IMG/VR virus record: IMGVR_UViG_3300042868_002103
Location: 1-26,113 of that record
Strand: one strand, 5' to 3'
Origin: a virus
Length of the DNA: 26,113 bases
How positions within the stretch are numbered: the stretch's first letter is position 1; each line of letters opens with the position of its first letter. The notes under the pieces are model-generated. The model made no database searches. It was not told where the DNA came from and was given only the letters and a program-made list of their open reading frames with translations. Both the position numbers and the translations under genes were made by a program. This document shows positions 823-7,154 of this stretch, piece after piece.

Positions 823-3390
823 TTAGATTGATTTGAGTAAATCATTACTCATTGCCTGTACTGCTGATAGTTGGCGTGTTTCTAATTCAAACTGTCCTTT
901 GTTAACAGCTATTAATTGTTCTAGTTTAGTATTTAAGCTAGACAATAGGCTTTCAGCTGATTCTTGAGCAGGAGCTGGTTTAGATCCTTTTCTCTCTTCT
1001 TCAGTTTTTTTAGCATCATCTTCTTTTTTCTCTGCGGCTGTTTTGGCTTCAACTGCGGCTTTTTTAGCTTCTTCTGCTGAAGTAATTACCGCTTTAGTTC
1101 CATCAGTTGATGCCGGTAATATTCCACTTTTTTGTGCTCTGAGTTCAGAGGCCAATAGTGCCGTTGGATCAGATGTACCGTAATCTAATTGTGCTTTTTC
1201 TTCTTTGGCTGAAATTTCTTTTTTATTGGCATCATCTAATTTTCCAGCGTGCCCTTGTTTGATTCCTAATAGCCGTTGATCAATACTAGCCGCGGCTTGA
1301 TCTCGTTTTTGTTGTTTTGTATCAGCATTTCTTTCGTGGGCTAATTTTGCACGTTCTGCATCTCTAGCCGTTTCTCGCCCGTCAAGGATAGCTTGTTCAG
1401 CTTTAACCCCCTCTCTGGCGGCCTTGACAGCGTCACTGCCTCCAAACAAGCTGGCAATTTTTTCAGCTATCATTAGGTAGATGTCTAGTAATCCTAAACC
1501 AAAACGTTTTATATTATCGCCAACTGCCTGTAAGGCTGTACCAAAACTCTCACCACCGTCATACAATCCTTTGAATATCAATATCAATGATGCAGCAACA
1601 ATGGCTAATGGAAGGAAGGGAGCAACAGCTGCCCATGTTGCTGCGGCTAAGGCTGTAAGTCCACCGCTGGATATAAACAGCAATCCGGTTTGGACCCCAA
1701 TCATGACATTCCTGGCTAGTTCTAATCCTTTAGTTATCAACATTTGACCGTGCGTTAGCAAGAACAAAGTACCTAGAGCAGCCATGATCGGCACAAGATT
1801 ATCCCAAATATATCCAGCAACACTCATAAAAGGTTTCAGCACATAGTCAACAACTATACCACTGATTAATTGCAGAGCAGGCCATACATATTCTGAAATT
1901 ACGCTGCCTAGTTGTTGGAAAATTGGAAGTATGTCAGCAACTAAAAATCCAGCTATGGTTAGAAATGCCGGATATAAAAATTCAAATGCGGCTTGAATTC
2001 CAGTGGTCAACATACTAAACACTGGCACTAACAAGTTCTGAACGATGTTAGCCAATACAGTAAATGCCGACATCATGGTAGTCAATATACCGCTGTTAGC
2101 CAGTGCCATTTGGAAACTATTGCTAAACTCTGCTAATTTTGCTTTGGCTTCTTCTGTGGCTTTTACCTGACCATCTGTAGTTTTAGCAGAATTAGCGATC
2201 TCTACATTGGATTTTTTAAGTCCGTCGGTATTAATCTGTTGAGTAGCTGCTAATCGATTAACTGTACCGCTTAACTCAGCACTAGCAGCTCCTGCGTATT
2301 TTATATTCTGAAGATTTTTTGCCCCTTCCTGCTTCATCATGTTGTTTAGAGCGTTGCGTTCTTCTAAGGTTACTGCTTCGCCTCGCTGCATTTTTTGATT
2401 CATTCTCTGCAGCATGGCCGCGCTCTGAGGCATCATAGCCATGAGTTTTTGATTTTCGTCTGTAGTAGCTGTGCCAGTAGCCATGATATCTTTGGCAAAT
2501 TCGTCAAGTCCTTTAGGTAGCCCGGTTGTTACAGCAAGAAAACTTTTTCTCACTCCATCACCAAGTCCAGACATAGACGCTTGGAACTGCGCATCTTTTG
2601 CCATTGCAGCCATTTGATCTTCTACCTCCTGACGACTTTTGCCTGTGGCTTTAGCCAATAGATCCATTTCTTTAAGATAACTTTTAGCACCTTCTGCTAA
2701 TTGTGCATTAGATTGTTTACCTTGCTGTCCTTGCAGTCTCATAAGATTACCGTAGCTGGCCAATCCTTGATTAATCTCTTCTGTACCGTATCCTAGAGCG
2801 TATAGATCACTGCCTGTTGCACGCAGAGCTTTTGAAACCTGACCAAATCGTTTAGCACCTTCTTCAGTGGTAGTACCAAATCCTAATAATCCAGCACCGT
2901 TTTTAGCAATCAGCTGACCAAACTTGTCCATGGTCATACCTGCTTGACCTGCTGCTATGGCAAAGTTGTTTACACTGCCACCAAATGTAGCACCGGATGC
3001 TGCTGCTGTTTTAAATGCACCTGTGGTTTTTTCAACCGCTTGGGCAACAGCACTAAACACTGTGCCTAAGATAGGTACTTTGTCAAATACACCGGCAGCA
3101 CTTTCTAAACTATCACCAACATTGGCAAACTGTTTAATGGTATTGGTAAGACCATCGGTAAGTTTGATAAATCCTTTGGTTAGGGATGTTGCTTGTTTTT
3201 CTAAACCAGTTAGAGATTTACCAGATTCTTTGATTTTTTTAGGATCAAGAGCTGCACCTCCGCCACCACCGCTACCGCCACCACCTCCGCCTTTCATAGC
3301 TTTTAAGATAGCCTGCAGAGTTGCTTCAGTAGCAGCATTTTTTGCTTCTACGGTACCGACTCCTGGGATGTCTATGAATACTGATGCCAT
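823..3390 (-). CDS. Probable tail tape measure protein
   Basis: This is an 855-residue protein. It has a short N-terminal segment (IDIPGVGTVEAKNAATEATL), a glycine linker at residues 34-45, and a mostly helical part (about 50-420) with motifs such as AAGQAGMTMDKFGQLI that recall tape measure N-termini. A long block of hydrophobic helices follows (about 430-610), and the tail is highly charged and Ala/Lys/Glu-rich (about 640-835). Length, composition and helix block are those of a tape measure, which sets tail length and is ejected with the DNA. T4's own tape measure is gp29 (590 aa); I do not see direct gp29 similarity, so the call rests on architecture and on the neighbouring gp26/gp51 genes, whose T4 counterparts act in hub/tape assembly. 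The minus-strand start has CAGGA about nine bases upstream and a late-type box at 3446-3439. It could be another large virion protein. Confidence 0.62.
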   Translation of the reverse strand: MASVFIDIPGVGTVEAKNAATEATLQAILKAMKGGGGGGSGGGGGAALDPKKIKESGKSLTGLEKQATSLTKGFIKLTDGLTNTIKQFANVGDSLESAAGVFDKVPILGTVFSAVAQAVEKTTGAFKTAAASGATFGGSVNNFAIAAGQAGMTMDKFGQLIAKNGAGLLGFGTTTEEGAKRFGQVSKALRATGSDLYALGYGTEEINQGLASYGNLMRLQGQQGKQSNAQLAEGAKSYLKEMDLLAKATGKSRQEVEDQMAAMAKDAQFQASMSGLGDGVRKSFLAVTTGLPKGLDEFAKDIMATGTATTDENQKLMAMMPQSAAMLQRMNQKMQRGEAVTLEERNALNNMMKQEGAKNLQNIKYAGAASAELSGTVNRLAATQQINTDGLKKSNVEIANSAKTTDGQVKATEEAKAKLAEFSNSFQMALANSGILTTMMSAFTVLANIVQNLLVPVFSMLTTGIQAAFEFLYPAFLTIAGFLVADILPIFQQLGSVISEYVWPALQLISGIVVDYVLKPFMSVAGYIWDNLVPIMAALGTLFLLTHGQMLITKGLELARNVMIGVQTGLLFISSGGLTALAAATWAAVAPFLPLAIVAASLILIFKGLYDGGESFGTALQAVGDNIKRFGLGLLDIYLMIAEKIASLFGGSDAVKAAREGVKAEQAILDGRETARDAERAKLAHERNADTKQQKRDQAAASIDQRLLGIKQGHAGKLDDANKKEISAKEEKAQLDYGTSDPTALLASELRAQKSGILPASTDGTKAVITSAEEAKKAAVEAKTAAEKKEDDAKKTEEERKGSKPAPAQESAESLLSSLNTKLEQLIAVNKGQFELETRQLSAVQAMSNDLLKSI

Positions 3391-3455: not shown

Positions 3456-4346
3456 ATGAGTGATAATTTAGAGGTGCAACAACCGGAGTTGCCACAAAAT
3501 CCGCAGCCACAGGCTGCTAAAAACCCGTTGTCTAGTTGGTACAGACAACCAAAAATATATGTGTCATTACCAAGCAAGGGAAGATTTTATCCAGCAGGAT
3601 CTTTAGATGTTAGCACCAACGGCGAATATGCTGTGTATGCTATGACCGCTAAAGACGAACTGATGTTTAAAACTCCAGACGCATTGTTAAGTGGCCAATC
3701 AACCGTTGAAATTATCAAAAGTTGTATTCCAGCAATTAAAGATCCTTGGAGCATGCCTAGCATTGATCTTGATTTTGCGTTAATAGCTATCCGCATAGCC
3801 ACTTACGGTGAAAGCATGGAAGTGGGCTGCAAATGTCCAAGTTGTGAAGCTGATAACAGTTATGATGTTAATCTATCTCATTGGATTGGCATGATAGGTC
3901 AATTTAATTATGATGACGTGATCAACGCTGATCCACTGACCATTTATATCAGACCTTATACCTATCAAGAAGTTACAAAAACTTCTATCAAAGCATTAGA
4001 ACAACAACGTATATTCAATATCATCAACGATGATAGTCTCAGCGACGAGGATAAGGTTGACAAGTTTGGCAAGAGCTTTGTTAAAATGACCGAACTCACT
4101 ATTGATATTATCGCTGATACTATCAAAAAAATCGTAACACCGGATGGTGAAACATCAGATAAAGCTCAGATCAAAGAATTTATCAACAACTGTTCAAAAG
4201 ATCTGTTTGATACTATTTCAAACCGTGTGACTTCTATCAAAGAACAGATTGAACTCAAAGCACAGAATGTCAAGTGCAACGAATGTGATCATGAATTTTC
4301 ATTACCGGTTACGATGGATCAATCAAATTTTTTCGCCAAAGGGTAG
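3456..4346 (+). CDS. 26: Baseplate hub assembly protein gp26 (T4_baseplate family), zero-frame product
   Basis: A 296-residue protein starting MSDNLEVQQPELPQN. Recognisable family motifs are YVSLPSKGRFYPAGSL, the segment AKDELMFKTPDALLSG, and SCIPAIKDPWSMPSIDLDFA. Two cysteine pairs, CKCPSC (about residues 125-130) and CNEC (about 276-279), suggest a zinc-ribbon fold interrupted by a helical insert. T4 gp26 is a small protein needed for assembly of the baseplate hub. Here it lies alone with the gp51-like frame on the plus strand between minus-strand genes. The last codons are AAT TTT TTC GCC AAA GGG TAG; the TTT TTC pair forms a -1 slippery site, so a fraction of ribosomes should extend the protein into the next frame. 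T4 gp26 is about 208 aa, so this is a longer member. Confidence 0.85.
   Translation: MSDNLEVQQPELPQNPQPQAAKNPLSSWYRQPKIYVSLPSKGRFYPAGSLDVSTNGEYAVYAMTAKDELMFKTPDALLSGQSTVEIIKSCIPAIKDPWSMPSIDLDFALIAIRIATYGESMEVGCKCPSCEADNSYDVNLSHWIGMIGQFNYDDVINADPLTIYIRPYTYQEVTKTSIKALEQQRIFNIINDDSLSDEDKVDKFGKSFVKMTELTIDIIADTIKKIVTPDGETSDKAQIKEFINNCSKDLFDTISNRVTSIKEQIELKAQNVKCNECDHEFSLPVTMDQSNFFAKG
4328..4334 (+). promoter_or_regulatory. Predicted -1 ribosomal frameshift site, T TTT TTC
   Basis: In the gp26 frame the bases fall as T TTT TTC, a canonical X XXY YYZ heptamer, three codons before the gp26 stop. Slippage by -1 puts the next codon at 4334 (CGC) and continues as RQRVASLALSEILEY into the gp51-like frame, which is open from 4295. 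The fusion would have 293 + 75 = 368 residues. Efficiency cannot be judged from sequence. Confidence 0.72.
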
Positions 4347-4355
4347 CTAGTCTAG

Positions 4356-4397
4356 CCTTGTCTGAAATTTTAGAGTATTCTAAACAGCTAGACAAGG
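4356..4397 (+). promoter_or_regulatory. Hairpin downstream of the frameshift site
   Basis: CCTTGTCT (4356-4363) pairs perfectly with AGACAAGG (4390-4397) across a 26-base loop. The stem starts 21 nt after the slippery heptamer, farther than the usual 5-9 nt spacer. A small GCTA/TAGC hairpin (4346-4356) lies between. It could be a weak frameshift stimulator or chance. Confidence 0.35.
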
Positions 4398-4561
4398 AAG
4401 CAAAAGAAATTAAAAAAGAAATTCTCAAGATGTGTTGGTATATGAGAGGACTAAGTTACTCGGAAGGAATGAATCTAAGTTTTGATGAGCGCCAGATAGT
4501 TGGCGAGATTATCAAAGAAAATCTTGAAACAACTAAAAAATCAGGCCTACCGTTCTTTTAG
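4358..4561 (+). CDS. 51: gp51-like hub/tail assembly protein, probably made as a C-terminal extension of gp26
   Basis: This frame encodes a small, charged helical protein (67 aa from the TTG at 4358, 75 aa from the frameshift point at 4334). The sequence includes KQLDKEAKEIKKEI, then MCWYMRGLSYSEGMNLSFDE and RQIVGEIIKENLETTKK. In T4, gene 51 follows gene 26 directly and encodes a small factor needed for hub assembly; position, size and the pattern of a short acidic/Met-rich segment before a terminal helix support the same role. There is no ATG before residue 26 of the 67-aa form, and the only early start candidate is TTG with a poor binding site, whereas the -1 site in gp26 leads straight in. 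The stop codon overlaps the stop of the converging minus-strand gene by four bases. The gp51 name is by position more than by sequence. Confidence 0.6.
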   Translation: MSEILEYSKQLDKEAKEIKKEILKMCWYMRGLSYSEGMNLSFDERQIVGEIIKENLETTKKSGLPFF

Positions 4562-6201
4562 AATGCGGGCTTGAGTTCTTTGGTCAGTTTGACCTTTACT
4601 TTTCCAATAACTTCGTCACCAGCTTTCTTGATTTCAGCAGCTAATGTGTTGATATCAACCTTGCCAGTGGGTGTAGTATCAGCTGTTGGTTCGTCTGATG
4701 CAGGTTCAGCGGCTGTTGATGTTGCAGCTACGCTTTGATCTGATGTAGCATCTTGTTCAGGAGCAGTGTCTGTAGCATCATCAGAAGCAGCTGGCTGTGC
4801 TGGCGTTGCTAACTTCATAGAGTCGTAAACACTGTTGATCACCTCAGCGTCAACTCCTTGATCTTTCAATAGTTTGTAAACAGCATCGCTGTCTGTGGGA
4901 CTGCCAGCTTTGGTCCAAGCAGTACGCAGTTTGTCTGAGGTAGTTTTGTTAGTAAGATTTTTACCAACCTGTTTGAGTTTGTCACCTACTACACCCGCAG
5001 CACCTTTTACTCCACCTTTTACTGCTGCACCTAATTTGTTTAGGAATGCCGGAGCTTCTGTTAGTTCTTGTGCTGCTATGCGATTAAACAGTAGATAAAC
5101 TTGCCCTTCACTTAGTGGACGAGCCTGTACATAATAACTTTCTTTAGCAGCGTTGCCGGCTGCTTGTCCTGCTAGTGCTGATGCTACTGGAGTAATTACC
5201 TGTTGTAAAGTTGTTATACCTTTTATAGCATCAGCGATAGGTGCTGCTGTTTCACCTGCTTTGGCTGCTGCTGCTATAACTGCCTGTTGATATGACGGGT
5301 CTGCAACTTTTTGTATTAACGCATCTATTCCTGTTTGTGCGGCTTTCATAGCTTTGTTAGCTGGGCTGTTAGGATCCATTAGCGCATCAATCCCGCCTGC
5401 TGGCGTCGCGTTAGCGTCTAACCATTTTTGCACAAGATTATCATACGCTTGACTATCTTTAGGCAACATATTAAATTTTTGTGCCATAGGTGTGCCGGCA
5501 TTGACTGTTATTACGTGTACTTCTCTGCCCTGTTGGATATTAGCCAGAGTATCTTTAAGTAACCCAGCAACTTTAGCCACGGCGGCTGCAGTTAATCCTG
5601 CTGTAAGTCCAGCAGTACCTCCACGTCCAACTGCTGTGGATAGATCTTCACCTTTTAATAATCTGTCTGCGATATTAACAATACCTACAGCAACTCCTGT
5701 ACCTGTACCAATTGCTAGAGCACCAGCTGCTATACCACCTGCGGCAGCAACGCCTAACGCAGCAGCGATAGATCCAACTATGGCCAACAGGAATTTCTGC
5801 ATGGCAGGATTTTTCTCAGCATACTCTGCATACTTGTCAATGGCTGCAATAACTTTACTATCCGGATTAGCAGCACGTATTTTATTTTTTAATTCTTTAA
5901 ATTTAGCATCAGCTGCTGCCACAGGCGCTGATTTTTTAAGCATAGCTCCAAACTTATTAAACCATGCGTCACTGATTGTACCAGCAGCGTCTTTGCCTTT
6001 GCCCAGCAGTGTACGATTTTTACCTGTAGCACTAGCACCTTTTTCAACATCAGCAAACATCTGCATAATTTGATCTGTACTAAGGGCTGCTTCGCATAGT
6101 GTAGGATGTATTTCTCTTTCCCAAGTTTCAAAATACTGATCTTTTAGACCAAGCGTTTCAAATAATGGTGATCGTGATTCTAGTAGTTTTTGAATTTTCA
6201 T
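4558..6201 (-). CDS. Ala/Gly-rich virion-type protein of unknown function, hydrophobic centre
   Basis: I do not recognise a named family. The 547-residue protein begins MKIQKLLESRSPLFETLG, has a charged helical part to about residue 135, a strongly hydrophobic Ala/Gly/Ile/Val region at about 137-178 (two possible membrane helices) and a second one at about 192-216. A long Ala-rich part follows, then a Pro/Ser/Thr/Asp-rich linker (about 470-515), ending in a lysine-rich tail. Starting one base after the stop of the preceding gene (…CTA TAA T ATG), it is probably translationally coupled. The N-terminus (MK, hydrophobic residues, then LE at 7-8) resembles capsid-targeting peptides cut by the T4 prohead protease; LFE at 13-15 is a second possible site. 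With hydrophobic helices it could be an internal or ejected virion protein; this is inference. Confidence 0.75.
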   Translation of the reverse strand: MKIQKLLESRSPLFETLGLKDQYFETWEREIHPTLCEAALSTDQIMQMFADVEKGASATGKNRTLLGKGKDAAGTISDAWFNKFGAMLKKSAPVAAADAKFKELKNKIRAANPDSKVIAAIDKYAEYAEKNPAMQKFLLAIVGSIAAALGVAAAGGIAAGALAIGTGTGVAVGIVNIADRLLKGEDLSTAVGRGGTAGLTAGLTAAAVAKVAGLLKDTLANIQQGREVHVITVNAGTPMAQKFNMLPKDSQAYDNLVQKWLDANATPAGGIDALMDPNSPANKAMKAAQTGIDALIQKVADPSYQQAVIAAAAKAGETAAPIADAIKGITTLQQVITPVASALAGQAAGNAAKESYYVQARPLSEGQVYLLFNRIAAQELTEAPAFLNKLGAAVKGGVKGAAGVVGDKLKQVGKNLTNKTTSDKLRTAWTKAGSPTDSDAVYKLLKDQGVDAEVINSVYDSMKLATPAQPAASDDATDTAPEQDATSDQSVAATSTAAEPASDEPTADTTPTGKVDINTLAAEIKKAGDEVIGKVKVKLTKELKPAF

Positions 6202-6202
6202 A

Positions 6203-7126
6203 TTATAGCATCGCGTATAGTTGTTTTTTCTGCTCAGGATTGAGTTTGGCCAATTGTTTTTCTATGCCCTGCGGTATACCATCAGCACTGATTTTTTCAT
6301 ATTCAGCGCCAGTAATACCAGAAGCTACTCCTCGTCCTATGGCTTTAAGCGCACTGCCAATTCCACCTTGTTTAGTTTGTTGTGTGCTGCCAGCACTGTC
6401 TGCAGATGTTGCTGCTGGTTGAACACCAGATCGTGCAGCATCTTGGGCAGCAGCTAAGAAAGCCGCATCTAATTGATTACCGGCTAGAGCTTCGTATACT
6501 CCTGCTGCTAGTTTTTGTGTGGGTAAAGTTTTTTTAGCAGCACGTTGTACACGTAGACGCTGTGCATTAGGAGTTTGGCTAACCTGTCCAGCGACTTTGC
6601 CACCTGTTTGTGGTTTAGCAGGCGGAGCCTGCGTTGCGGCAGCAGGATCACTAGTGCCTTTTACAGCAGCAGTAGCTTGATCAGCGGGTGTTTGTTTGCC
6701 TAATTCTGCTTGAGCACCCTGTACAGCACCCTTGGCCACATCAGCTACACCTTTGCCTAGAGTTTTAGCAGCACCGGCCACAGCACCTCCAGCAGCTTTA
6801 ACTCCGCCAATGATTTTTTGACCAGAGGCTTTGAGTTGATCTCCAGCACTGGGAGTATTTTTAATAGCTGTCTCAGCACCCTGCGTGGGAATACCTTTGG
6901 ATTTTAAAAAGGCCAACACAGCGTCCACTTCAGCAGTACCACCAGTACGTCCTAGATAGCGTTGGAATTCTTTTTTAAGTTGATTGGCATGGTCACCTGT
7001 TTCTAACTTGCCCTGTGCAGTACCACTGCCTAGTTTAGACAACGCCTTGTTACCTAATTTAGATAACATGCCCATAGGTGCTTCTTGTACTTGTGTTGAT
7101 TCTACTAGAATGTCTGAGATTTTCAT
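6203..7126 (-). CDS. Ala/Gly/Gln-rich virion-type protein of unknown function
   Basis: A 307-residue protein starting MKISDILVESTQVQEAPMG. I chose the ATG at 7126 because GGAAT lies about ten bases upstream; a TTG at 7132 would add only two residues. The protein is low in complexity: Lys/Gly/Ala repeats such as GGVKAAGGAVAGAAKTLGKG (about 120-140), a Pro/Ala/Gln linker (about 155-185), a basic patch (RLRVQRAAKK), and a C-terminus KLNPEQKKQLYAML. Its first nine residues parallel those of the next gene, and of T4 internal-protein targeting peptides (MK…hydrophobic-x-E). The gene is first in a two-gene unit with a late-type promoter box at 7162-7155. No enzyme motif is visible. Internal head protein or tail accessory protein are the reasonable guesses. 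Confidence 0.72.
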   Translation of the reverse strand: MKISDILVESTQVQEAPMGMLSKLGNKALSKLGSGTAQGKLETGDHANQLKKEFQRYLGRTGGTAEVDAVLAFLKSKGIPTQGAETAIKNTPSAGDQLKASGQKIIGGVKAAGGAVAGAAKTLGKGVADVAKGAVQGAQAELGKQTPADQATAAVKGTSDPAAATQAPPAKPQTGGKVAGQVSQTPNAQRLRVQRAAKKTLPTQKLAAGVYEALAGNQLDAAFLAAAQDAARSGVQPAATSADSAGSTQQTKQGGIGSALKAIGRGVASGITGAEYEKISADGIPQGIEKQLAKLNPEQKKQLYAML

Positions 7127-7154
7127 TGACAATTATTCCACATTGTATAAGAGA

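Follow-up and report, generated by a model that had tools for sequence, protein, structure and literature searches.

The window, by which we mean the whole stretch of 26,113 nucleotides analysed here (IMG/VR record IMGVR_UViG_3300042868_002103), contains a gp26-type gene that begins at an ATG within a mechanical open reading frame starting at 3384 (Table 1). Its product matched the baseplate hub domain PF12322 well above the curated cut-off (66.8 bits versus 24.5; E 2.8e-18) as well as the PHROGs baseplate hub family phrog_150 (E 7.7e-24), and this is the single copy of PF12322 in the window record. A blastn comparison of the region with phages gave no match. The structure of the protein was predicted with a pLDDT of 85, that of the -1 frame tail described below was predicted to be all-helical with a pLDDT of 90, and neither matched the PDB when searched with Foldseek; the matches in a viral structure library were gp26-type hub proteins. 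The preliminary description had placed the gene next to a tape measure candidate. The two are indeed adjacent, but they are divergently oriented, rather than the one lying upstream of the other in a single operon. On the other side of the locus, two Ala-rich ORFs lie 3' of the tail on the minus strand (4558-6201 and 6203-7132), with no convincing family match in Pfam or PHROGs.

Table 1. Features of the gp26-type locus, in window coordinates
Feature	Position	Strand	Basis
Tape measure protein candidate, 855 aa; divergent neighbour and presumed client	823-3390	-	phrog_1538, E 5.2e-7
Short form (TAC-N), 296 aa; gp26-type baseplate hub / hub assembly domain	3456-4346	+	PF12322, phrog_150
Second, overlapping candidate heptamer A AAT TTT, in the same phase as T TTT TTC	4325-4331	+	direct reading
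Putative -1 slippery heptamer T TTT TTC, in gp26 phase	4328-4334	+	direct reading; codons invariant in the window and cyanophage clades
-1 frame tail (TAC-C), 75 aa plus stop at 4559-4561; predicted C-terminal domain of the long form	4334-4561	+	open frame, protein-level conservation
Zero-frame stop TAG, end of the short form	4344-4346	+	direct reading
Predicted RNA hairpin, 21 nt after TTC; not the stem of the clade	4356-4397	+	folding of 4329-4425

The gp26 frame closes with AAT TTT TTC GCC AAA GGG TAG, so that three codons lie between TTC and the stop. Direct reading bears out what had been claimed here: the heptamer T TTT TTC is in the correct phase, the -1 frame is open from 4295 to 4561, and after a slip it would read RQRVASLALSEILEY... 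for 75 codons (4334-4558). Also as claimed, this frame has no early ATG; close to the junction nothing resembles a start except a TTG at 4358, and this has no ribosome binding site. A slip on the overlapping A AAT TTT would give a protein identical to that from T TTT TTC, and in the window clade AAT is almost always preceded by a codon with A in third position (TCA, GCA or ACA; synonymous excess at this codon 0.95). Since TTTTTTC occurs nine times on the plus strand of this AT-rich window, the heptamer alone is little proof; the weight of the evidence for a putative frameshift site is in its conservation.

The first relatives examined were 83 loci, comprising the nearest 80 in IMG/VR (60-97% identity) and the isolates Atu_ph07, Phosso and PA5oct (33-38%). 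All 83 (relatives share ancestry, so that here and below locus counts do not equal independent events) carried T TTT TTC at the same Phe-Phe codons together with a -1 frame that runs on beyond the gp26 stop; where the contig did not end first, this extension measured about 206-227 nt in nearly every locus. The +1 frame of these 83 relatives gave no consistent extension. The same heptamer and an open -1 tail were also present in 79 of 80 cyanophage-type, two KVP40-type, three 121Q-type and two PA5oct-related loci (a PA5oct-related locus, L216, was too short for judging the site), and in RaK2, 121Q, BF, Vibrio 2.275, P-SSM4 and S-CAM1, with T TTT TTT in place of T TTT TTC in HTVC008M, XacN1 and CM1. 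Altogether the slippery site is common to about ten lineages at less than 40% identity.

At the codon level, both Phe codons were invariant, TTT and then TTC, in 63 sequences of the window clade and 74 of the cyanophage clade; at the gene's other Phe positions in the window clade, TTT was used 737 times and TTC 162 times (82% TTT). The preceding codon varied (AAT, GAT, AGT, CAT, GCT, TCT, CGT, TAT), as did the residue that it encodes (Asn, Asp, Ser, His, Ala, Arg or Tyr), with the third-position T always kept. Because heptamer and -1 tail are maintained across the first relatives, the cyanophages, KVP40 and the giant phages RaK2, 121Q, BF and PA5oct, the arrangement is not attributable to chance. 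An alignment of gp26 homologues thus agrees with the preliminary description, in that the heptamer is kept at the same FF codons and is followed by a -1 frame without a shared start. In the ackermannvirus Vi01 (L115, 1366-2265) the -1 tail is open, yet the sequence there, GAA ATT TTC ATT TAA, contains no classical heptamer.

The tail is conserved at the protein level in 55 distinct window-clade tails, from the first residue on. It resembled the tails of giant phages (E 1.1e-20), and the tails of cyanophages and KVP40 resembled residues 209-244 of T4 gp51 (E 4.7e-4). The window-clade tail itself had no significant sequence similarity to T4 gp51, although it occupies the same position; its earlier designation as gp51-like is therefore apt as regards position, and by way of the cyanophage and KVP40 tails, but not as regards direct similarity. 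Searches of Pfam and PHROGs with the tail alone gave no convincing match. In one cyanophage-type contig (L180, 1501-2400) domain and tail lie in a single frame, with TCT TTT TGG instead of TCT TTT TTC GG. Two bases seem to be missing from the slippery site, which would make this either a natural fusion or an assembly error.

The organisation in T4 is different. T4 gp26 (E 8.8e-64) and gp51 (E 3.9e-52) each contain a full PF12322 domain, the domain that they share with the window protein, and gp51 has in addition a tail of about 45 extra C-terminal residues. The two genes lie on opposite strands. Gene 26 is short, is abutted by gene 25 and ends TTC TTT; the heptamer is therefore gone. On these sequences, T4 encodes both products in separate paralogous genes and is not itself a case of -1 frameshifting. 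While T4 has two copies of PF12322, 37 of 38 other genomes or large contigs have one (many of these contigs are fragments, but the set includes the complete genomes of several isolates), and in Mel-JY01 none reached the threshold. Since T4 has two copies and nearly all the others one, the gp26/gp51-type pair would represent a tail-assembly-chaperone pair. Vladimirov and colleagues reportedly found frameshifting in several T4-like groups and, for the T4 group, two distinct genes, 26 and 51. The role of the T4 proteins in hub assembly comes from the genetics of gp26 and gp51 (PMC3004832), and a chaperone function in T4 itself would rest on these genetics together with analogy.

The tail might instead have a small gene of its own, with translation depending on coupling or on re-initiation past the gp26 stop. 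Separate annotations of the tail do exist, in P-SSM4, HTVC008M and KVP40, and in Atu_ph07 and Phosso an ATG at the junction forms an ATGA overlap with the gp26 stop in the -1 frame. These two phages are exceptions, however: an ATG is missing from the first 30 tail residues in 30 of 65 distinct loci, no start position is common to all, and the window offers just its TTG without a Shine-Dalgarno (SD) sequence. A separate tail gene also fails to explain why TTT TTC is invariant and always preceded by T, why the tail is conserved from residue one and why it is fused to the domain in T4 gp51. We consider this explanation very unlikely. According to the KVP40 annotators, KVP40.0327 is similar to 40 residues at the C-terminal end of T4 gp51; for cyanophage and marine vibriophage gp51, Sullivan et al. 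(2010; PMC3037559) reported that the first ~200 residues are missing. A separate gene 51 in cyanophages was rejected on the start, slippery-site, tail-conservation and fused T4 gp51 evidence, and the analysis indicates that the separately annotated 'gp51' of cyanophages and vibriophages in fact represents the extension of gp26 in the -1 frame.

Candidate RNA stimulators were found at the level of clades. In the window clade, a 9-bp stem beginning 3 nt after TTC had 92% of cells paired, compared with just 19-57% when it was slid to other registers, a lead that is partly built in because the stem was read from the same alignment. In this stem 23 cells had changed on both sides, above all 500 shuffles, and such double changes are less easily explained by the built-in bias. 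In cyanophages, an 11-bp stem beginning 5 nt after TTC, likewise read from the alignment members used for scoring, had 76% of cells paired and 17 double-change cells (0/500 shuffles). RNAalifold returned just one 5-bp stem for the window clade and no stem for the cyanophages. Upstream of the heptamer, an SD-like motif starting 12-15 nt 5' was present in 74 of 79 cyanophage- or KVP40-type loci, compared with 9.9% of control zones. As GAGGG, it is conserved about 12-15 nt 5' of TTTTTTC in the cyanophage loci L129-L208, where it is a possible dnaX-like stimulator; in the window's clade, GAGGG is absent upstream of the slippery site. The window phage itself has neither the stem of its clade nor the SD-like motif. 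Its predicted fold (-18.1 kcal/mol, z -0.70) includes the hairpin listed in Table 1, which is no better than that of shuffled sequence.

A stem-loop on the 3' side and an SD-like motif on the 5' side are ribosomal stimulators of the dnaX type, and their occurrence in the relatives points to ribosomal stimulation rather than to transcriptional slippage on the six-T run as the source of the long form. Slippage of RNA polymerase would yield nearly the same protein, and the T run is conserved; but polymerase slippage has no need for the final C of the heptamer, which is invariant in all but a few relatives, and six Ts are a short run for efficient transcriptional slippage. An origin of the long form in transcription is, in our judgement, extremely unlikely. 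Finally, although artefactual 1-nt errors are common in homopolymers and the single-frame version in L180 exists, the idea that one longer gene has been split by sequencing or assembly error, or that the -1 frame is open by chance, is refuted by the recurrence of the same break and the same heptamer in more than 160 contigs and isolate genomes assembled independently of one another, and deserves practically no credence.

Because the site and -1 coding are conserved, no start is conserved, the domain is present as a single copy outside T4 and stems showing compensatory changes are found at the clade level, we hold it to be highly probable that the gp26-type gene produces two forms of a tail assembly chaperone (TAC) via a -1 slip on T TTT TTC. 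In this scheme most ribosomes would end at 4344, giving the 296-aa short form, while a minority would move one base back on the heptamer and continue into the 75-aa helical C-terminal domain, for a long form totalling about 368 aa. Slippage itself, and its rate, are inferred. By analogy with lambda G/GT, the short and long forms would together chaperone the tape measure protein. The window gene thus very probably makes a short and a long version of a tail-building helper protein, like its relatives in many T4-like phages.

Several known systems bear comparison with this arrangement. Lambda G/GT and P2 E/E' similarly consist of a short and a -1 frameshifted long tail chaperone encoded next to the tape measure gene. 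However, the lambda slippery sequence differs from T TTT TTC, we found no sequence or fold similarity to G/GT (Foldseek versus PDB), and the window gene is divergent from its tape measure candidate. The proposal in the preliminary description that gp26/gp26-51 is a counterpart of G/GT can be retained for the -1 joining of a gp26-type domain to a short C-terminal domain, but it does not extend to T4 itself. The combination of SD-like motif, slippery heptamer and stem-loop is the arrangement of E. coli dnaX, and the cyanophage relatives have the same three elements in the same order; unlike them, the window phage lacks the SD-like motif and the stem of its clade, and both gene and heptamer differ from those of dnaX.

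Atkins et al. (2016; PMC5009743) described the G-T frameshift as widely conserved in long-tailed phages, with T4 excepted. The TAC genes of T4-like phages were subsequently identified by Vladimirov, Gautam and Davidson (2022; Virology 566:9-15), as reported in two papers that cite the work: according to the first, some T4-like phages have a short gene and a long fusion gene (PMC10885494), and according to the second, the T4-like TAC-N genes contain poly-T -1 signals (PMC12846349). The suggestion that a gp26/gp51 frameshift had not been described therefore fails and, since the 2022 study and the papers citing it cover TAC frameshifting in T4-like phages, the core of our finding was already known. 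The -1 arrangement itself is real and widespread. By the accounts of the citing papers, the window gene has in common with the TAC-N/TAC-NC set the gene family, both products and the poly-T -1 signal of several groups, the short and long genes being separate in the T4 group; it differs in that its clade is aquatic, unclassified and akin to giant phages. The present analysis extends the known -1 frameshift to this abundant clade and to giant phages where the tail either goes by the label 'hypothetical' or has no annotation.

In phages of Gram-positive hosts, namely the Streptomyces BRock group, Streptococcus GXN1, Bacillus SP-15 and Listeria LIS04, we observed the tail in the +1 frame (L218-L232; L104, 2980-3729; L234, 1201-1941; L235, 1201-1929). 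The 15 BRock-type Streptomyces loci share the gene end CTR TTT C... and a +1 frame that opens at the same distance, -26; only the C after TTT is kept, the zero-frame residue being Arg or Gln. The BRock-type tails resembled those of cyanophages (E 3e-4), and +1 tails were also present in SP-15, GXN1 and LIS04, the last of which reads TTT TTT A. A +1 slip at the same Phe is compatible with these sequences, which we regard as a lead rather than proof.

Such considerations would lead to a decoding rule that depends on lineage: -1 slippage on T TTT TTC in most phages of Gram-negative or cyanobacterial hosts, with clade-specific stems and, in cyanophages, the SD-like motif; +1 slippage at the same Phe in the BRock group, SP-15, LIS04 and GXN1; and duplication in T4. 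We consider the case for and against this rule to be evenly balanced. If it holds, one need, that for a short and a long chaperone, would be met in three ways, by -1 slippage, apparently by +1 slippage and by gene duplication. The +1 branch and the stimulators may so far have gone undescribed. A further +1 tail, here after a run of seven Ts, follows a gp26-like gene below the PF12322 threshold in the Microcystis phage Mel-JY01 (L105, 2890-3970).
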